In this document: positions 2,559-20,870 of the stretch, in pieces | Position numbering within the stretch: position 1 is the stretch's first letter | Layout of the letters: each line of letters starts with the position of its first letter | DNA from: a virus | IMG/VR virus record: IMGVR_UViG_3300006059_000010 | Location: 1-29,190 of that record | Reading direction: 5' to 3' (one strand) | DNA length: 29,190 nucleotides | The notes under the pieces: model-generated | The model's input: the letters and a program-made list of their open reading frames with translations, nothing else | What the model was told of the DNA's origin: nothing | The model's database searches: none | Position numbers and translations under genes: made by a program

Positions 2559-5399
2559 ATGGCGTTCAATGGCGTCTTGGAGTCTATCTTTCCGGCTGGG
2601 AGAAAGGTGCGCCCAGTGTCGAAGGATAAGGCGGTGGGTTGTCAGTTCTGCCCTCTGAATGAAGTCCCCGGCGTGAACAAGATATTCGGTGAGGTGACGG
2701 GGAAAGACATCTTCATCTGGGGCATGGCACCGGGGCCGGAAGAGAACGAGAGAGAGCTGGAATTCGTTGGTAAGTCCGGGAAGTATCTGTGGTCGGAGTT
2801 AGCGAGTGTGGGGGTGAGCCGGAAGCAGTGTGACATACAGAACGTGGTGAGATGCTTCCCGGCTACCTACAACGAGAACTACAAGCCTCCTCTGAGTATG
2901 CGTGATCCTACCAAGGAAGAAATCCGTTGTTGTTCGATCTACACCAAGAAAGCGATTGAGGAGTCGAAGGCTAAACTGCACCTGTTGTTTGGTGAGACGG
3001 CCCAGAAAGCAGTGTTGGGTGGTGAATACACCAAGGCCAAGAAAATCCTGTGGTCGGAGAAACTTGGTGCTCATGCGGTGTGTCTGTACCATCCTTCCTA
3101 CTTCGTCCGCATGGGTTACACGCCCTATGGTGGGCTCCCGGTTAGCCGACAACTGAAAGAGTTCCGGGACATCCTCACTTACGCGGTGACTACGTTGCTG
3201 AAGTCGAAGAAGCAGTACGCGTATCTGGAAGAGATGGAGTACATTTCAGTCCTGAAACGTGGTGTGGCTAGATCAGCGTACGATGAAATCTGTGAGCTGG
3301 CGAAAACCAGACGTGTAGCGATTGATATTGAAGATGGCGTGATCAAGGAAGGAAGAAATGCCTTCCTGTGTTGTGGTGTCTGTGCTTCACCCGGTCGGGT
3401 GTTCGTGTTCGCGTTGGATCACAGGATAGCGGGTTCGATGGATGATGAAGACTGGGAGACGAACTGGGAGATCGTGACGAAGATTTTGGAGAACCCCAAG
3501 ATCAGGAAAATCTTCCATCATGGCAGCTATGATGTGGATAAGATCAGACGGACGGCGGGGATTAGGGTTAAGGGCTACGACTACGATACGGAGTTTGGTG
3601 AGTACTTCTTCGATCCTGATGCCAAAGCCTTCGGGCTACAGGCGATTGCGAATAGACGGTATCCGGAGTTCGGCCCTTACAAGGAGATCGTAGTACCGGA
3701 AGCGTTCACGGAAACCTTCCTGAAGAAATTCCCCGAGAACTCCAAGGTACCGTTGGTCAAGAAATACGAGATGGCGCGGAAATCTGGCGCCCTGAACATG
3801 GCACAGGTACCGTGGAAGAAGCTGGTGTTGTACAACGGCGCGGATACAGACCTGACCAAACGAGTTGAGATCAGTACGAGGAAGAGATCGAATCAACCGT
3901 TGATGGCGATCTACCGGGATGTCTCAATCGTGTTGGCGAAGATGGAGAAGAGTGGCCCCCTGTTCGACTATGAACAGTGCAATCGGTTGTCGAAGCTGTA
4001 TCCGATTCGTGTGGAACGATGGATGAAGGAGTTGAGAGCGATAGCAGGGAAGAAAGACTTCAATCCCGGTAGCCCGGATCAGGTGAAGTGGTTACTGTAC
4101 GAGAAATTGGAACTGGAGCCACCGCCTAACGCGGAGATGAATACCAGAGCTGAAACGTTGGAGTTGATGTTGGACGATCATCCGGCGGTGAGGTTGGTCT
4201 TGGACTACAGGAAGGACGCGAAGATTGGATCGACCTATCTGGCTGGGTTCAAACGTAGTGCGGACATGCATGATGGAAGACTGGCCACGAAGTGGTGGTT
4301 GACGGGGACACGGACAGGACGGTTGAGTTCGGGGAAGGGGAAGGTCGAAGAGGAGACAACCAAGGGGTTAGTGAACCTCCAGAACATCATCAGTCAGGTG
4401 GACCTACAGAATATGGTGATGTCCTCAGACGAGTGGAAGGACATCTACGAACGGTGGTTACTGAAAGGCCCCTATACGGAGAAGAATTGGACCCGCTGGG
4501 AGGATGTGGATGTGATGGTGGGGTTCGATGAGGCCCAATTCGAAATACGTGTGGTAGCCCAACGGTCAGGGGATGAGGAGCTGATCGCGACGTTCGAACG
4601 GGACGAAGATATCCACGCGGAAGTGGGTTACCAGTTGACCGGGATATCGAAGGACATACTGAGAGAAGAATGTGCGGAACGTGTGGCCGTGAAAGGTATG
4701 CACTTCGGGATCATCTACGGTCTACAGGCGATCGCCCTTCATGCGAATATCTGTGCTGAGTACAAGAAGCGTGGTATCACGAAGCTACCGACACTGCAAT
4801 GGGTGAAGGACTTATTGAAGGCGTACTTCACCCGGTACAGGAAAGTCACTAACATGATTGCGGCGGATCGGGTACAGGCAGCTAAGGATGGATTCGTGGA
4901 GACTATGTTCGGGTTCCGGCGGCCTATCAATGTCACGGAACAAGAGACATTGGGCGATAAGTGGACAGGGGCTTACTGGGCGAATCAGGCGGCGAACACT
5001 CCGATACAAGGAACGGCTCACCAGTTACTACTTGCGGCATTGGCACAGTTGGAGAGACAGAAAGAAAAGTACAAACTGCTGCAGCGTCCCAAGATGGAAG
5101 TTCATGATGCGATCTACTTCTTCGTGAAACTTAGAGACATGTGGGAAGCGATTGAACTGGGAGTACCACTGCTGGAGAAAGAACCTGTCAGAGTGGCGCG
5201 GGAAGAGTTCGATATCGATTGGAAAGTACCATTGAAGGCGGAGCCTAAGGCGGGATTTCGTTTCGGTGTGCAGGTGAAGCAGTTGGGAATGAAGAAAGGG
5301 CCGAAAACTACGTGGGAGTTTTTGAACGCGTGGTGTGAGAAAACCCAGAAAGTCGAGAAGGAATTACGAAGCCAGTTCAAGAAATTGAGGGCATCTTGA
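2559..5399 (+). CDS. Family A DNA polymerase with N-terminal uracil-DNA-glycosylase-like domain and 3'-5' exonuclease
   Basis: 946 aa in three parts. Residues about 25-210 look like a family 4 uracil-DNA glycosylase: CQFC (28-31), C99 and C124/C125 can hold an iron-sulfur cluster, GMAPGPEE (55-62) replaces the usual GEAPGxxED, and HPS (178-180) is present. Residues about 250-440 are a DEDD exonuclease: DIED (256-259), HHGSYDVD (320-327), YDTEF (342-346), Y425 and D429. Residues 450-946 are the polymerase. Motif A is FDEAQFEIR (D657, E662). Motif B is R708, K712, F716, Y720 at E. coli Pol I spacing. Motif C is VHDA (D850), where most relatives have HDE. F716 matches E. coli F762. This is almost certainly the phage replicase; a 5' nuclease domain is absent. 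SPO1-like phage polymerases are reported to carry a similar N-terminal domain. The start follows a weak AGAGGT site. Confidence 0.92.
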   Translation: MAFNGVLESIFPAGRKVRPVSKDKAVGCQFCPLNEVPGVNKIFGEVTGKDIFIWGMAPGPEENERELEFVGKSGKYLWSELASVGVSRKQCDIQNVVRCFPATYNENYKPPLSMRDPTKEEIRCCSIYTKKAIEESKAKLHLLFGETAQKAVLGGEYTKAKKILWSEKLGAHAVCLYHPSYFVRMGYTPYGGLPVSRQLKEFRDILTYAVTTLLKSKKQYAYLEEMEYISVLKRGVARSAYDEICELAKTRRVAIDIEDGVIKEGRNAFLCCGVCASPGRVFVFALDHRIAGSMDDEDWETNWEIVTKILENPKIRKIFHHGSYDVDKIRRTAGIRVKGYDYDTEFGEYFFDPDAKAFGLQAIANRRYPEFGPYKEIVVPEAFTETFLKKFPENSKVPLVKKYEMARKSGALNMAQVPWKKLVLYNGADTDLTKRVEISTRKRSNQPLMAIYRDVSIVLAKMEKSGPLFDYEQCNRLSKLYPIRVERWMKELRAIAGKKDFNPGSPDQVKWLLYEKLELEPPPNAEMNTRAETLELMLDDHPAVRLVLDYRKDAKIGSTYLAGFKRSADMHDGRLATKWWLTGTRTGRLSSGKGKVEEETTKGLVNLQNIISQVDLQNMVMSSDEWKDIYERWLLKGPYTEKNWTRWEDVDVMVGFDEAQFEIRVVAQRSGDEELIATFERDEDIHAEVGYQLTGISKDILREECAERVAVKGMHFGIIYGLQAIALHANICAEYKKRGITKLPTLQWVKDLLKAYFTRYRKVTNMIAADRVQAAKDGFVETMFGFRRPINVTEQETLGDKWTGAYWANQAANTPIQGTAHQLLLAALAQLERQKEKYKLLQRPKMEVHDAIYFFVKLRDMWEAIELGVPLLEKEPVRVAREEFDIDWKVPLKAEPKAGFRFGVQVKQLGMKKGPKTTWEFLNAWCEKTQKVEKELRSQFKKLRAS

Positions 5400-7648: not shown

Positions 7649-7657
7649 GGAGGAATG

Positions 7658-8995
7658 ATGGCGAATATCGTAGCACCCGATGCAGATGATCGGGATGAGT
7701 TTGAACAAAGACGGAAACAGGCGGTATTGGACCGTAAGGATCGGGTGTCGGGTGGTCTCTTCAAATTGCCTGAGGGAGAAACGACATTCCGAATCCTGAA
7801 AACTCCAGCGGGAGTGAAGTCTCCAGCCTTGTATGTGGAATACTACCTGCATGGCGGTATTGGGCCTAAGAACTACACCCGAGCTTGTGGCAAGAACGCG
7901 GCCACAGAGAAGGGGCGTTGTTGGCTGTGTGATGTGAGGATTCCGAAGTTACTGGAGATGGGCAAGGAAGAACGAGTCAAAGACCTGATGAGACGGAAGA
8001 CCTACGCGGTGAACATCGCGATAGTTGACCCAGATACGGGAGAGTTCCGGGGGCCGTTGTTCTGGCCTATGTCATCGGGGAAGACAAGCAAGTCCTTGTC
8101 GTGGAAGATTCAGAGCATCATCATCTCCAAGAACAGTGCGGAGTACCTGAATCACAAGAGTGGATACAACTACACGGTGACCCGGATCGGCACTGGAATG
8201 ACAGATACGAGCTACGAACTGGGGGAGAGGGACAAAAATCCCAGTCGAGTGCCACGAGCGATCATTGAGAAGTTGAAGCCCTTCGAGGAAATCCAGCTCA
8301 AGTACGATGAGGAAGAGTTGAAGAAGGCCTACTACGGCCAGAAAGATGAGGAGCCTGTGCAGAAGAAGCGCCGTGTGGATGAAGACGAGGAAGATGAACC
8401 GAAACCGAAGAAGAAGATTCGGGCGGAAGAGGAAGACGATGATGAAGAAGAGCAGAGGCCTAAAAAGAAAAAGGTTCCTGTGGATGAAGACGAGGATGAT
8501 GATCCCGGCCTTGAATACCCAGAGGATGATGACGATGATCAGCCCAAGAAGAAGAAAGGTCGTGATGCGGAGGAGGACGAGGACGATCAACCCGTGGTGA
8601 AGAAGAAAAAGCCTCCGGTCGAGGATGACGATGATGAAGCCCCCAGACCGAAGAAGAAGCGGCCAGTGGACGTGGATGAAGAGGACGAAGAAGAGGAGCC
8701 TGCCCCCAAAAAGAAGAAGAAGCCAGCGGTAGACGAGGACGAGGAAGACAATGAGCCACCGCGGAAGAAAACCTATCGGACTGAGGACGATGACGAGGAT
8801 GAGACACCGCCTCCGAAGAAGAAAAAGCCTCCGGTAGACGAAGACGACGAGGATGTCGCTGAGCCTGAGGAAGAGGATGAAGACGAGGCGCCACCTCCCA
8901 AGAAGAAAAAGCCACGGGTTGAGGAAGAGGATGAAGACGAGCCAGCGCCGCCGAAGAAAAAGCGACGTATAACGGTGGAAGAAGACGAGGAGTAA
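7658..8995 (+). CDS. gp32-type single-stranded DNA-binding protein with long charged-repeat tail
   Basis: 445 aa. The second of two adjacent ATGs was chosen because GGGAGGA then sits 4 bases away rather than 1. Residues about 30-225 resemble the T4 gp32 core: H65, C77, C88 and C91 repeat almost exactly the His-Cys-Cys-Cys zinc spacing of gp32 (64, 77, 87, 90). FWPMSSGKTSKSLSWKI and a hydrophobic strand after it fit the OB-fold. From about residue 230 to the end the chain becomes a regular alternation of acidic runs and Lys/Arg blocks, roughly as long as the core. gp32 normally has one short acidic tail that docks partner proteins. The neighbours (possible UvsY before, UvsX/RecA after) support the SSB role. 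The N-terminus MANIVAP matches the peptide shared with four other proteins here. Confidence 0.82.
   Translation: MANIVAPDADDRDEFEQRRKQAVLDRKDRVSGGLFKLPEGETTFRILKTPAGVKSPALYVEYYLHGGIGPKNYTRACGKNAATEKGRCWLCDVRIPKLLEMGKEERVKDLMRRKTYAVNIAIVDPDTGEFRGPLFWPMSSGKTSKSLSWKIQSIIISKNSAEYLNHKSGYNYTVTRIGTGMTDTSYELGERDKNPSRVPRAIIEKLKPFEEIQLKYDEEELKKAYYGQKDEEPVQKKRRVDEDEEDEPKPKKKIRAEEEDDDEEEQRPKKKKVPVDEDEDDDPGLEYPEDDDDDQPKKKKGRDAEEDEDDQPVVKKKKPPVEDDDDEAPRPKKKRPVDVDEEDEEEEPAPKKKKKPAVDEDEEDNEPPRKKTYRTEDDDEDETPPPKKKKPPVDEDDEDVAEPEEEDEDEAPPPKKKKPRVEEEDEDEPAPPKKKRRITVEEDEE
8340..8992 (+). repeat. Degenerate in-frame repeats coding acidic/basic blocks of the SSB tail
   Basis: About 650 bases of GA-rich sequence code for roughly 11 basic blocks (KKRR, KKKK, KKKKP, KKKKK and similar) separated by acidic blocks of 8-20 residues such as VDEDEED or EDDDDE. 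A typical unit is 45-70 bases. Units are not identical at DNA level, so the array is old or under coding selection rather than freshly expanded. The strand asymmetry produces long false reading frames on the opposite strand. Confidence 0.85.
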
Positions 8996-11166: not shown

Positions 11167-11447
11167 AGAAGCAACAGCCTGTGGTCTTGGTACAGGATAT
11201 GGGGTTGCCCGCGTTGATGGCGTGGGTTACGGAAATGATCTTGTCCGCGTTACAGGATGGGGATCAGACGAAGAAACAGACGGCGATTGCTCAGGCGAGA
11301 GCTGATTTCCGATTGTGGTATGAATCCCAGCCCGTCGAGGGGAGAGGAGAACAAGCGAAGGCATCGAAGAAACTGTTGGAGAGTTTCAAGATGATTTCCG
11401 AGCAGTTCTATCAGGACATTGTCACCTTGGCGGCACAAGACCTGTGA
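11127..11447 (+). CDS. Hypothetical protein
   Basis: 106 aa, with GGAGG upstream of the ATG. It begins with a charged Lys/Glu/Pro segment (about residues 1-17), followed by predicted helices (LPALMAWVTEMILSAL, then KQTAIAQARADFRLWY, then a final amphipathic helix). No motif is recognised. It overlaps the previous gene by 40 bases and ends 7 bases before the acyl carrier protein gene, so it probably belongs to the same translated unit. Confidence 0.6.
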   Translation: MPEKVEAPKEEKVKKQQPVVLVQDMGLPALMAWVTEMILSALQDGDQTKKQTAIAQARADFRLWYESQPVEGRGEQAKASKKLLESFKMISEQFYQDIVTLAAQDL

Positions 11448-11454
11448 GGTGAGT

Positions 11455-11676
11455 ATGACGGCGGAAAGTGTGGTGAGGGAGGCGATCATCGAACAACTAT
11501 GTGACTCTGCCTTTGACGATGACAGTACCTTTGATGATTTGGGTGCGGACTCACTGGACCTAGTGGAAATCCTGAACATCATTGAAGACAAAACGGGCAA
11601 GATCATCGATGAGAAAGACTTGGGCAACATAGAGACGGTGGGGGACATGGTCAGGTTACTGGGGAAGTATCTGTGA
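11455..11676 (+). CDS. acpP: Acyl carrier protein
   Basis: 73 aa, close to the usual 75-80. The start follows GAGGTGAGT. The motif DLGADSLD (28-35) contains S33, the serine that receives the 4'-phosphopantetheine arm from a holo-ACP synthase. The rest follows the acidic four-helix ACP pattern, with LVEILNIIED as recognition helix II and IETVGDMVRLL as the last helix. No ketosynthase, acyltransferase or synthase gene lies nearby, so the protein must use host enzymes or serve another role. Its place between replication genes (overlapping the clamp loader by 4 bases) is odd. A few large phages are known to encode ACPs, but their job is unsettled. It could draw on host lipid precursors or bind host ACP partners. 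Confidence 0.85.
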   Translation: MTAESVVREAIIEQLCDSAFDDDSTFDDLGADSLDLVEILNIIEDKTGKIIDEKDLGNIETVGDMVRLLGKYL

Positions 11677-16245: not shown

Positions 16246-16707
16246 ATGGGTAGCGTGTTACAGGATTGGGCGGAAGAGCTGCCACTTAGGTTCCAAGGCA
16301 CTTTGCTTACGGCGGTAAGAGGATGTGATTTTGAGCCTAAGACATGGACACGCACTGGAGTAGCTTACTCACCGGGTAGAAGGTTAACATCGTTCATTCG
16401 GTATTGCTTTATGAATCCAGCTGATCCTCGTGAAGTGGATGCGGAAGAGGGAGCATTTTTTATGAGCTCTGCTCCCGAAAAGTTTAAGCCCTCAGAGTTT
16501 GGGCATCTACCGCAGCATTGGTATTCCCATGCAATGCATGCTTTGGAGATTGTTGGGTACTATCATCCTGATCCAGCGATAGCTGCTATGGCTGCGAATT
16601 TGTATATCAAGATGGTAAAGAATATGCATCTGAACGTTGAAACTAAAGAGCAGCAGTGGACTCGATTGACGGAAGATAGAATCGCTAAAGGTGAGGTGGT
16701 GTCATGA
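16246..16707 (+). CDS. Conserved phage protein of unknown function
   Basis: 153 aa; GGAGG lies about 10 bases before the ATG. The opening WAEELPLRFQGTLLTAVRG and the later HAMHALEIVGYYHPDP with a helix after it recall a family of phage hypothetical proteins often found near replication genes; I know of no assigned function. A histidine-rich segment (LPQHWYSHAMHALE) could bind a metal. Codon choice in the second half leans more to A/T third positions than the neighbours, which may mean separate acquisition. It overlaps the next gene by 4 bases. Confidence 0.65.
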   Translation: MGSVLQDWAEELPLRFQGTLLTAVRGCDFEPKTWTRTGVAYSPGRRLTSFIRYCFMNPADPREVDAEEGAFFMSSAPEKFKPSEFGHLPQHWYSHAMHALEIVGYYHPDPAIAAMAANLYIKMVKNMHLNVETKEQQWTRLTEDRIAKGEVVS

Positions 16708-17957
16708 GGAGATTGGTGTGGATCGTGTTCGTGGTTCTATGTCTATCGGCGTTGTCGGTGGCCATTGATTGTAACTCGATGGTGTCAGATGACGCGAACG
16801 TATTCACTGGAAAGACAACTGATGTGACACTGGCGGGACAGGCATTGGTGGATCAGGGCGCGGACCTTCGTGTGATAAGTACATCCAGTCAGAACTTGGA
16901 TGTAAGCGAACATAACATGGAGTTAGGTTGTCCATCATGGCAAGGTCCGAATGGTACCAGAAAAAGCACGTTGATCGTTCTGATGGTAGCCCCCAAAGAG
17001 CGTAAGATGGGTATGTTCTATGGGGCGGCGTGGCATCATGCATTGGATGGGAGTTGGAACCGGATCAAACAAGACTACATGGCGCCGTATTTCAAGACAG
17101 GTGATTTCGCGGGTGGGATGATTGCCTCAGAGAAGCAACTAACCGCGAGGTTACTAGCCTCCAAGGATGAAGCTACTCATCCGGCTACAGTTGTGAATGA
17201 GGCAGCGAAACCTACAGACCTGTCGGGACTGTGGCGAGTCATGGGTTGGTTGTTGGCGCTTGGGTTTGGCGTCTTTGTGATTGTTGTGGTGGTGATTGAA
17301 TTGAGAGCACGACAGAGAAAGAAGGACGCTGTTACAAAAGCCCAAGCGGACGCTACGGCTGCGAGGAACACCGCCACTAACTTGATTACTCAGAAGAAAC
17401 AGGTGGTCATGACCGTGAATGATCAGCGAATCTTTGAGGATATCAATCAGCAATTTGTTGATTTTGCAGGGAGCTATCGTGGTGATCCGAGTCAGGAATT
17501 GACACTGGCGCAGTACGAGTCCATGAGAGATGTGTACAACAGTATCGCGGCACAGTTGAGAGCGTTGGGGAAAGCTGGATGGAAAGATGGCGTGAATGTG
17601 AAGATGGATTCCAGCCCACGGCCCTCAACTAAGAAAAAGACTCACAAGGATGAAAGCTTCAAAGAACCAGAACCGGGACGGTCGGTGAGTACTTCGACCG
17701 TGGATAACTCCGTACACGTCACGCCAATCGTCATTGGGAACGATTTTGGGGGGTCTAGAGAGACGCCGGAACGTATTCGTGAGCCAGAACCCGAACCAGA
17801 ACCCACACGGTCCTACGGTGGTTCTAGTGACTATGGAAGCTCGGACTCAGGGGGAGGTGGTTCTAGTGACTGGAGCAGCTCGGATTCTGGAGGGGGTGGC
17901 AGTAGTGACTTTGGCAGTGGCGGTGATAGTGGCGGTGGTGGTTCGGACAGTTTCTAA
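16704..17957 (+). CDS. TPM-domain membrane protein with glycine/serine-rich tail
   Basis: 417 aa. Residues 1-20 form a signal peptide ending near SVA. Residues about 27-155 match the TPM domain (TLP18.3/Psb32/MOLO-1): DDANVFTG, a GADLRVIS strand, CPSWQGPNGTRKS, then LIVLMVAPKERKMG and a helix with YMAPYFKTGDFAGG. A membrane helix follows at about 176-199. Residues 200-300 are a charged helical cytoplasmic or periplasmic region, 300-370 a Pro/Glu-rich linker, and 371-417 a tandem Gly/Ser/Asp/aromatic tail. TPM domains sit outside the membrane in envelope and photosystem maintenance proteins. Together with the PspA gene 24 bases downstream and the SPFH lipoprotein at 5869, the context points to host membrane maintenance. 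Confidence 0.82.
   Translation: MRRLVWIVFVVLCLSALSVAIDCNSMVSDDANVFTGKTTDVTLAGQALVDQGADLRVISTSSQNLDVSEHNMELGCPSWQGPNGTRKSTLIVLMVAPKERKMGMFYGAAWHHALDGSWNRIKQDYMAPYFKTGDFAGGMIASEKQLTARLLASKDEATHPATVVNEAAKPTDLSGLWRVMGWLLALGFGVFVIVVVVIELRARQRKKDAVTKAQADATAARNTATNLITQKKQVVMTVNDQRIFEDINQQFVDFAGSYRGDPSQELTLAQYESMRDVYNSIAAQLRALGKAGWKDGVNVKMDSSPRPSTKKKTHKDESFKEPEPGRSVSTSTVDNSVHVTPIVIGNDFGGSRETPERIREPEPEPEPTRSYGGSSDYGSSDSGGGGSSDWSSSDSGGGGSSDFGSGGDSGGGGSDSF
17820..17939 (+). repeat. Tandem 39-base coding repeat (three units)
   Basis: Units at 17820-17858, 17859-17897 and 17898-17939 (the last 42 bases, more diverged) encode GSSD-aromatic-x-SSDSGGG repeats with Tyr, Trp then Phe at the same place. Units one and two differ at only a few bases, so this tail probably grew by recent slippage or unequal exchange. 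Confidence 0.8.
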
Positions 17958-17981: not shown

Positions 17982-18653
17982 ATGTCAACGTTCTTGCAAA
18001 AACTGCGTGTGGTTACACTGGGTAACGTTCATGATCTGTTGGATAAAGCGATTGATATGAACTCGCCCTCAGCGATTCGTCAGTACACGCGTGATCTGGA
18101 AGATGCCTTGGCTAAGATGAGGACTGAGGCCGCGGTACAGGATGGACAGGTTCGAACCTTGACCCGTGAGAAAGACGATCTTACTCACCAGATTGAGACT
18201 GCGAAGATTAACGTCACAGCCCTGTTGAAAGACTCGACCAAACAGGATGTGGCGAGAACGAAGGCGGCAGCCATACTCACCATGCAACGTAATCTGGATG
18301 CCACTACACAACATCTTGAGGAACAGAAGACAGCCTCACAACAGACGGATGCCGCGTTGGTGAATCTGGAAGCCAAACACTCAGACATGGTGGCCAGAGT
18401 CCGGGAACTGGAAAGACTGGATCGGGATACCAAGATCAAGGAATCAAGTGCACAGGCCTTGGAGTCGGCTGGTGCGTTGGTGAGTGGTGGCGCGGATATA
18501 TCGGTGGATGACATCGAAAGTAAGATGAGACAACGGAATGACGTGGCCAGTGCTAAGTTTGATCGGGCGATGGGTTCGGTCAAGGTCGAAGAAGACCCCG
18601 GTACATCGGCACAGGTGGACGATCTACTGGAGAGTTTGAAGACCAAAGCTTAA
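17982..18653 (+). CDS. pspA: PspA/IM30-family membrane-stress protein
   Basis: 223 aa, matching the PspA family length, with AGGAGAAGG before the ATG. The chain starts FLQKLRVVTLGNVHDLLDKAI, the amphipathic helix and first turn expected of PspA/IM30. Nearly all the rest is helix with heptads (about 40-150), including the TREKDDLTHQIETAK region, followed by a helix-turn segment (about 165-223). PspA forms ESCRT-III-like rods and rings that protect damaged inner membranes. A phage copy could keep the membrane energised during a long infection or counter host holin-like defences; both are inference. It follows the TPM gene and precedes a cold-shock gene. Confidence 0.85.
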   Translation: MSTFLQKLRVVTLGNVHDLLDKAIDMNSPSAIRQYTRDLEDALAKMRTEAAVQDGQVRTLTREKDDLTHQIETAKINVTALLKDSTKQDVARTKAAAILTMQRNLDATTQHLEEQKTASQQTDAALVNLEAKHSDMVARVRELERLDRDTKIKESSAQALESAGALVSGGADISVDDIESKMRQRNDVASAKFDRAMGSVKVEEDPGTSAQVDDLLESLKTKA

Positions 18654-19882: not shown

Positions 19883-20036
19883 AGTTCCGGCCGGACATGA
19901 TCCGGTTCGGTTGGAGGCGTATCTGTTCGCTGAAGTGAGTTAGAGCTTGAAACACGGGCTGGACTAAAAAGGATAGACCGGCTCAACGCCTCCACAGCAA
20001 TCATGTTTGTATCTTAAATAGAGAAGGAGTAGCACA
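19883..20036 (+). promoter_or_regulatory. Structured intergenic leader upstream of the frameshift gene
   Basis: This 154-base gap has no ORF but dense pairing. A hairpin starts right after the previous stop: CCGGA (19891-19895) with TCCGG (19901-19905), extended by wobble and outer pairs. A closing stem TGGAGGCGT (19912-19920) pairs with ACGCCTCCA (19986-19994), nine perfect pairs. It encloses a small hairpin whose arms are GCTGG-A-CTA (19958-19966) and TAG-A-CCGGC (19974-19982). The 18-base repeat and the ribosome site GAAGGAG follow. It could be a processed or regulatory leader, or hold the end of one transcript and the promoter of the next. Confidence 0.5.
20000..20017 (+). repeat. 18-base repeat, copy 1 (candidate promoter element)
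   Basis: ATCATGTTTGTATCTTAA. It matches the copy at 20653-20670 at 16 of 18 positions. It lies 19 bases before the ATG at 20037. TATCTT resembles a -10 hexamer at four of six positions, so a host or phage promoter is one reading. Confidence 0.5.
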
Positions 20037-20258
20037 ATGGCAAGAGGTAAGTTGTATGAATACGCGGTACTGTTCCATCCCAAGCCTACGAAAGACCCGG
20101 CAGGCAACGATACGACACCCAAGAGCACGGTGATCGTTCCACTCACACAAATACTGGCGGAGTCGGACAAGGAAGTGGCGATCAAGGCCGCCAGAGCCAT
20201 AGATGCGAAGTATGATGATCAACACGATCTGGTGGAGATCATTGTCCGCCCTTTATAG
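20037..20258 (+). CDS. Small conserved phage protein, zero-frame product of a frameshift gene
   Basis: 73 aa behind a good AGAAGGAG site. The chain opens with KLYEYAVLFHPKPTKD, has a charged middle (PLTQILAESDKEVAIKAARA), and ends VEIIVRPL. This resembles small phage proteins that I recall ending in a V-x-I-x-V-R-P-F motif. Here the zero frame ends in RPL and a stop, while the -1 frame at the same place reads RPF and continues open for 81 codons. The last two sense codons form the slippery heptamer described separately. The short product is expected from ribosomes that do not shift. Function is unknown; small genes with -1 shifts in tailed phages are often tail assembly chaperones or capsid variants, but no sequence likeness to those was seen. 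Confidence 0.75.
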   Translation: MARGKLYEYAVLFHPKPTKDPAGNDTTPKSTVIVPLTQILAESDKEVAIKAARAIDAKYDDQHDLVEIIVRPL

Positions 20259-20283
20259 CCCAGTCGGAAGAGACCGATTGGGC
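20231..20283 (+). promoter_or_regulatory. Candidate -1 programmed ribosomal frameshift signal
   Basis: Three standard parts lie in order. An SD-like GGTGGAG sits at 20231-20237, 11 bases upstream. The slippery heptamer C CCT TTA, in the correct X XXY YYZ phase, sits at 20249-20255. The zero-frame stop TAG follows at once (20256-20258). Then a ten-pair stem, GCCCAGTCGG (20258-20267) with CCGATTGGGC (20274-20283), one G-U, closes a six-base loop. The spacer is only two bases, shorter than usual, unless the lowest pairs are melted by the ribosome. An SD-like upstream element plus hairpin is the E. coli dnaX arrangement. Confidence 0.7.
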
Positions 20284-20500
20284 GAATATAGAAGCGGCAG
20301 CTGGAGCAGCGGTAACACAGGAATGGGCATCACCGGGGCCAGCGTTTGTGGGCATGGTACAGGAAATGCCTAGACGCGAAGTACTTCGGAAGTCATTGAG
20401 CAATGTGAGAAAGACGGCGGAAACGGTAACGGCGGGGACGATGAGCAACGTCAGTGTGTCACGACCGAGTACGAGCTACGTGGCATCGTCACTACGTTAG
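20249..20500 (+). CDS. -1 frame extension of the 20037 gene (frameshift product)
   Basis: From the slippery site the -1 frame stays open to TAG at 20498-20500. This adds 81 residues to the 73-aa product, for a fusion of about 154 aa. The added part begins IAQSEETDWANIEAAAG, has a charged helical middle (RREVLRKSLSNVRKTAE), and a Ser/Thr/Val-rich end. The frame has no ATG, GTG or TTG between its last upstream stop (20216-20218) and about 20348, and no ribosome site, so independent translation of the whole segment is not possible. Codon choice looks like that of neighbouring genes. The extension has no recognised family. If the frameshift were false this would be a 440-base non-coding gap, unusual in so dense a genome. 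Confidence 0.65.
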   Translation, partial: PFIAQSEETDWANIEAAAGAAVTQEWASPGPAFVGMVQEMPRREVLRKSLSNVRKTAETVTAGTMSNVSVSRPSTSYVASSLR

Positions 20501-20631: not shown

Positions 20632-20687
20632 TGGGCGGTAACGTTGGAGCGGATCATGTCCGTATCTTAACGTACCGCCCATTTTCT
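20632..20687 (+). terminator. Intrinsic terminator-like hairpin
   Basis: TGGGCGGTA (20632-20640) pairs perfectly with TACCGCCCA (20673-20681), followed at once by TTTTCT. Inside, after a bulged A, CGTT (20642-20645) pairs with AACG (20669-20672), and CGGA (20650-20653) with TCCG (20659-20662). The GC-rich stem plus T-run fits a Rho-independent terminator closing the frameshift cassette and the structured RNA. It ends only a few bases before the next ribosome site, so the next gene would need read-through or a promoter inside the hairpin. Confidence 0.6.
20653..20670 (+). repeat. 18-base repeat, copy 2
   Basis: ATCATGTCCGTATCTTAA, 16 of 18 identical to 20000-20017. This copy lies inside the loop side of the terminator hairpin and 32 bases before the next ATG. 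Each copy thus precedes a gene after a structured gap, which fits a transcription start signal better than a coding remnant. Confidence 0.5.
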
Positions 20688-20702: not shown

Positions 20703-20870
20703 ATGCCAGTCAAGTCAATGAACAACCAGAAGGCGACCAGCCCCAGCAAAAACATTCAGCGTGGTATTGATCAGGCATGGGGACAACAGCAAAAAGGTAG
20801 CACAAGCCCGCAGACTGTGCTAAATCAGAAATGGACCAAGAATCCGATTAAGGTTGGCGGCAGCAAGTAA
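20703..20870 (+). CDS. Small basic protein
   Basis: 55 aa with a strong GAGGAG site. It is rich in Lys, Gln, Ser and Asn, with no hydrophobic core, and looks disordered (KATSPSKNIQRGIDQAWGQQQKGST). It is the first gene after the terminator-like hairpin. Function unknown. Confidence 0.6.
   Translation: MPVKSMNNQKATSPSKNIQRGIDQAWGQQQKGSTSPQTVLNQKWTKNPIKVGGSK

Follow-up and report, generated by a model that had tools for sequence, protein, structure and literature searches.

A conserved slippery heptamer and a putative −1 frameshift extend a small protein of environmental phages

Does a 73-codon phage gene that ends on a slippery sequence also encode a second, longer protein? The question arose from a viral record of 29,190 bases, the whole of which was analyzed and is called the window here. 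On its (+) strand, a zero-frame CDS (20037-20258) runs from ATG 20037 to TAG 20256-20258 behind a likely ribosome-binding site, AAGGAG at 20024-20029, which was read directly in the sequence and rated good. The CDS encodes a 73-aa protein, MARGKLYEYAVLFHPK...VEIIVRPL, and its last codons, CGC CCT TTA TAG, contain the heptamer C_CCT_TTA at 20249-20255 in the X_XXY_YYZ phase, in frame for tandem −1 slippage and directly followed by the stop; the initial annotation had described both elements exactly to the base. Beyond them, the −1 frame is open for 81 codons (20255-20497, +) up to TAG 20498-20500. As had been claimed, this frame has no start codon near its beginning, the first start-like codons (GTG 20348 and ATG 20354) occurring about 30 codons in, and the predicted size of about 154 aa agrees with 73 plus 81 residues. 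The proposed ten-pair hairpin, which begins two bases after the heptamer, is also present (20258-20283, +). Its arms, GCCCAGTCGG (20258-20267) and CCGATTGGGC (20274-20283), enclose a 6-nt loop, AAGAGA; one of the ten pairs is G-U, and the first stem base is the last base of the stop codon. The segment 20249-20300 folds with −21.3 kcal/mol (z = −4.74), and 0 of 200 shuffles were as good.

An SD-like GGTGGAG, a possible stimulator, does lie 11 nt upstream of the heptamer (20231-20237, +), as had been noted, but its claimed status as an independent part of the signal did not survive scrutiny. Because it coincides with codons for conserved VEI/VEV residues, and because only 20 of 65 relatives have GGAG, GAGG or AGGA ahead of the heptamer, the element is neither an independent nor a family-wide component. 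For the window alone, the open −1 frame was only modestly unlikely (p = 0.025, dinucleotide shuffles), and it is the comparison with its relatives that makes the case decisive.

The family comprises 89 distinct members, the window included, which were collected by viral contig scans, one bacterial-genome scan and one phage-record search. The members are mostly environmental metagenomic phages, from which nearly all of the support comes; they also include LR756501 (L004), a 735-kb huge phage, and a prophage of Spirosoma sordidisoli TY50 (L030), the one cultured lead, which lies in that bacterium's genome. Because one search pattern demanded that the protein end in RP[FL], the residues found there are biased; codon choice, the position of the stop, the −1 frame and the hairpin are not affected. 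The relatives are not independent, and clustering at 80% identity still yielded 55 groups. Neither the short form nor the extension had a match in PHROGs or Pfam, and a profile search of the PDB with the 73-aa protein returned no match and no sequence relative. When the −1 extension was searched directly on its own, no relatives turned up, owing to its hypervariable middle part. No description of the gene family was found in the literature searched, coverage of which was incomplete. The gene family is new; its inferred mechanism is a known one.

The comparison of homologous phages could have refuted the frameshift. Instead, 86 of the 89 members keep an N_NNY_TTN heptamer directly abutting the zero-frame stop, and the −1 frame is open in all 86. 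After the slip, the −1 frame stays open for a median of 70 codons, compared with 9 for the +1 frame and 11 for the zero frame past the stop; the shortest −1 frame, of 19 codons, belongs to a contig end (L109). Among the exceptions, L068 carries its heptamer, C_CCT_TTC, a codon ahead of the stop and has an extension of the usual type, and L088 has lost the frameshift arrangement. In L080, the N-domain and the extension form one uninterrupted ORF that reads through RPFLEQSSVAFTG..., a natural fusion encoding the long form.

Codon usage at the slip site is equally constrained. Within the first 64 members examined, the proline codon was CCT in 61 of 61 cases, against 24% in the flanking genes (binomial 1.7e-38, although relatives are not independent). 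Most relatives end in RPF, one branch ends in RNF, and a few end in RPL like the window. The RNF branch slips on A_AAT_TTT, in which CCC_TTT is replaced by AAA_TTT. All 13 AAT members carry A as the preceding base, and ten of these encode Arg by AGA rather than CGN. Among the CCT members, the corresponding base is mostly C (CGC in 61 and TGC in 1 of 72) and is A in 2. Such covariation of the slip triplet (Fisher 7e-13), with CCC changing to AAA along with the Arg codon, is what tandem re-pairing would demand. P-site re-pairing would be imperfect in about ten CCT members because the base before CCT is not C. Additionally, TTA at the slip is unique to the window among the 89 members, and slip efficiency in the window may be low because re-pairing of the TTA-decoding tRNA on TTT is imperfect. 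The initial annotation had stated that similar small proteins end in RPF, which is how the −1 frame reads at the slip. Most relatives do end in this way, but with tandem slippage the slip residue should be the zero-frame Leu (RPL-I...) and not the Phe of plain −1 translation.

RNA folding, expressed as the energy relative to dinucleotide shuffles, peaks across the family at the place where the hairpin lies in the window. Over 65 members, the mean z was −1.95 in the 42-nt segment starting at the stop, and 29 of the 65 had a value below −2 there. The signal decayed within 9 nt, z was about 0 elsewhere, both upstream and downstream, and the commonest stem start was 2 nt after the heptamer. An Rfam search of the frameshift region gave no match.

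The extension opens with PFL and then becomes hypervariable in sequence and length (43-108 codons, L030 and L004 left out), with an S/T/N/G content of 38% compared with 15% in the N-domain. At its end stands a conserved tail of the Y-x-A-S type, such as SYTASQL, VYNAAQI, SYVASSLR or TYSLTSALN; in the window, the tail of the long form is STSYVASSLR (20468-20497, +). A strict regular expression for the tail matched 46 of 65 extensions (shuffles: mean 9.6, maximum 20), while the two remaining frames of these stretches gave 0 and 2 matches. A relaxed expression fitted 73 of 86, against a mean of 31 and a maximum of 43 in shuffles. Seeking the motif at the termini of further ORFs in the loci returned essentially nothing but the extensions themselves, and a small clade (L038, L039, L044 and L050) lacks it. 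A dN/dS test of the −1 frame, which the initial annotation had put forward as a check, was carried out on other family members, no close relative being available for the window itself. It came out in favor of a translated frame: pairwise values for the extension were 0.31-0.57 in close relatives (L052/L053/L048 and L033/L043), and the N-domain gave 0.06-0.17 where computable. One pair of the tail-less clade, at 0.84 in the extension, speaks against it. L052 and L053 have identical N-domain DNA and differ at 18 sites in the extension, and therefore the extension evolves much faster. These comparisons strongly support an open −1 frame that is subject to selection at the protein level. AlphaFold modeled the extension with low confidence (pTM 0.23) except for the last 13 residues, which is consistent with a flexible linker and a short tail, and no more.

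Two observations on individual extensions were made in passing. L038, L039 and L044 have nearly identical 73-aa N-domains and quite different extensions after PFVAL, as if the extensions had been swapped. In L063, a conserved tail, SYNAAQV, lies just behind an extra −1-frame stop (−1 frame after 4844), which could be a mutation, an assembly error or a second recoding event.

Overall, we consider a programmed −1 frameshift that gives a short and a long product highly probable (about 0.9). Both the frameshift and the selection on the extension are strongly supported by comparison rather than by an expression experiment, and expression data are lacking. In the proposed mechanism, most ribosomes would terminate at TAG and release the 73-aa protein. 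With CCU-UUA in the ribosome, UAG as the following codon and the hairpin sitting at the mRNA entrance, a fraction of ribosomes would be delayed by the hairpin at the stop. These would move back by one base on C_CCU_UUA as the Pro and Leu tRNAs re-pair in tandem with CCC and UUU. We infer from general knowledge of −1 frameshifting that the short spacer and the slow-to-fill stop codon would both favor the slip. In E. coli, UUN ranks among the A-site codons that shift more readily (PMC4066793). The slipped ribosomes would read 81 further codons and produce the protein of about 154 aa, in which an N-terminal alpha/beta domain would be followed by a flexible, fast-evolving linker and the conserved C-terminal Y-x-A-S-type peptide. 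We infer that the slip ratio would set the share of molecules that carry the tail.

Other explanations of the open −1 frame fared poorly. It might be a separate gene, with its own start or with coupling at the TAG, and some extensions do contain an internal ATG or GTG, a few of them with an SD-like sequence; the clearest case is L030, with an ATG so equipped 23 codons in. However, no start codon lies near the junction in the family, 17 of 65 extensions have no ATG at all, and the natural fusion in L080 speaks against two genes. A separate gene would also leave the heptamer, the CCT codon, the covariation of the XXX triplet and the conserved hairpin without a reason, and we regard it as very improbable. 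Still less credence is due to TAG readthrough or transcriptional slippage in place of ribosomal frameshifting. The stop is indeed mostly TAG (51 of 64), but TAA and TGA also occur, the zero frame past the stop runs for a median of 11 codons before it closes, and the T run of only 3-5 is too short for transcriptional slippage. A merely chance coincidence of the parts, to which the p of about 0.025 for the open frame of the window might lend some color, has all of the family evidence against it and deserves next to no weight; it is refuted by the open −1 frames, the folding peak, the CCT fixation and the 86 of 89 heptamers across the family.

The function of the protein is far less certain. From 62 sequences, AlphaFold predicted the N-domain to be a small beta-beta-alpha-alpha-beta domain (pLDDT 85), the last strand of which extends to the slip site. 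VIA-align comparison with the eL20 N-terminal domain, PurS and PaaB gave Z scores of 5.4-6.3 and an rmsd of 2.3 over 60 residues. The likeness is confined to the small alpha/beta arrangement, without sequence similarity; Z values below 8 may reflect only a common arrangement, and no functional inference is drawn from these matches. Foldseek of this model against viral and PDB models found nothing below E 0.001, and in the PDB E was not below 0.05. Among the top 25 PHROG families listed, neighboring genes are dominated by UvsX/RecA, Sak4, clamp loader, SSB, RecT, dNMP kinase, MazG and helicases. Upstream of the frameshift gene of the window, and on the same strand, lie RecA-like and PolA genes as well as ORFs judged by sequence to be clamp-loader-like and SbcCD-like. 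No conserved neighboring gene was found beyond this general DNA-metabolism context. Because the neighbors are mostly replication, recombination and nucleotide genes, the protein may act inside the cell as an accessory to the replication or recombination of phage DNA or to nucleotide metabolism, with the tethered tail of its minor long form docking on a partner. The inference from neighbors is weak, portal or terminase genes adjoin a few members, and we hold this reading only tentatively. More speculative still is the thought that an undescribed, widespread replication/recombination family uses the −1 frameshift to set the share of molecules with a disordered tether and docking peptide and thus controls replisome or repair stoichiometry.

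The main rival to an intracellular accessory accepts the same frameshift but places the protein in the virion, as a capsid or fiber protein whose long form displays an exposed C-terminal segment, in the manner of gp10A/10B and Ig-like extensions. The S/T/N/G-rich, fast-evolving extensions would suit such a role, as would the collagen-like repeats encoded by the −1 frame of LR756501 and the VGIG-T/N-x-x-P-like motifs of a few extensions, which are of a kind known from tail-fiber proteins. In several phages the gene is immediately preceded by GroEL/GroES, and L036, L071 and one further locus have terminase or portal nearby. However, the neighbors, among the matches listed, largely fall outside the virion genes, no structural family matched the short form, and what is conserved is a short peptide at the C terminus, not a display domain; a virion role remains possible, though doubtful. 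T7/T3 gene 10 (10A/10B) likewise has a phage −1 slip close to a stop that gives a short major and a longer minor product (PMC5009743). It encodes the major capsid protein, whereas the 73-aa product here, of an unlisted family without PHROG or Pfam match, does not qualify as one; here, too, the stop abuts the heptamer and the neighbors are mostly not virion genes. A tail-assembly-chaperone pair like lambda gpG/gpGT offers the same two-form, stoichiometric logic, with a small protein, a −1 extension near the gene end and a signal conserved across diverse phages, and the ratio of forms presumably matters in both. Nevertheless, no tape-measure or major tail gene appeared in the surveyed flanks among the matches listed (whole genomes were not mapped), and no sequence or PHROG match was obtained, so this explanation is improbable. 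The hypervariable linker with its C-terminal tail is a further difference. By the features tested, the family could not be placed in either the T7/T3 gene 10 or the lambda G/GT family. E. coli dnaX (tau/gamma) combines an SD-like upstream sequence, a heptamer and a hairpin in a replication context. It resembles the family gene in these respects (the SD-like sequence in the window), but its frameshift product is the shorter form, whereas here it is the longer one, and the proteins are unrelated.

With this family, the short list of phage −1 frameshifts gains a well-supported case, whose gene is conserved between soil and water phages and the 735-kb huge phage. Gene callers report only about 70 aa, and annotation consequently misses half of the gene product. 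The alternation of CCC_TTT and AAA_TTT at homologous positions provides a natural experiment on tandem slippage, and the conserved tail offers a handle on the binding partner and hence on function.

Several further features of the window were recorded. Two exact copies of ATGTNNGTATCTTAA, at 20003-20017 and 20656-20670 (+), are the only ones in the window; each lies shortly before the ribosome-binding site of a gene, namely the 73-aa gene and an ORF at 20704, and the element is a candidate phage promoter element. Exact inverted copies of CGGATCATGTCCG, each nearly palindromic, flank the frameshift gene at 19892-19904 (−) and 20650-20662 (+). A single ORF at 2559-5399 (+) joins DNA polymerase A to an N-terminal uracil-DNA-glycosylase-superfamily domain. 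The phage also carries an acyl carrier protein (11419-11676), a TPM-domain protein (16704-17957) and a PspA/IM30 homologue (17982-18653), all on the (+) strand, which together form an unusual membrane- or lipid-related cargo. Finally, the 446-aa protein encoded at 7655-8995 (+) has a C-terminal half of alternating acidic (DEDEDD) and basic (PKKKK) blocks.
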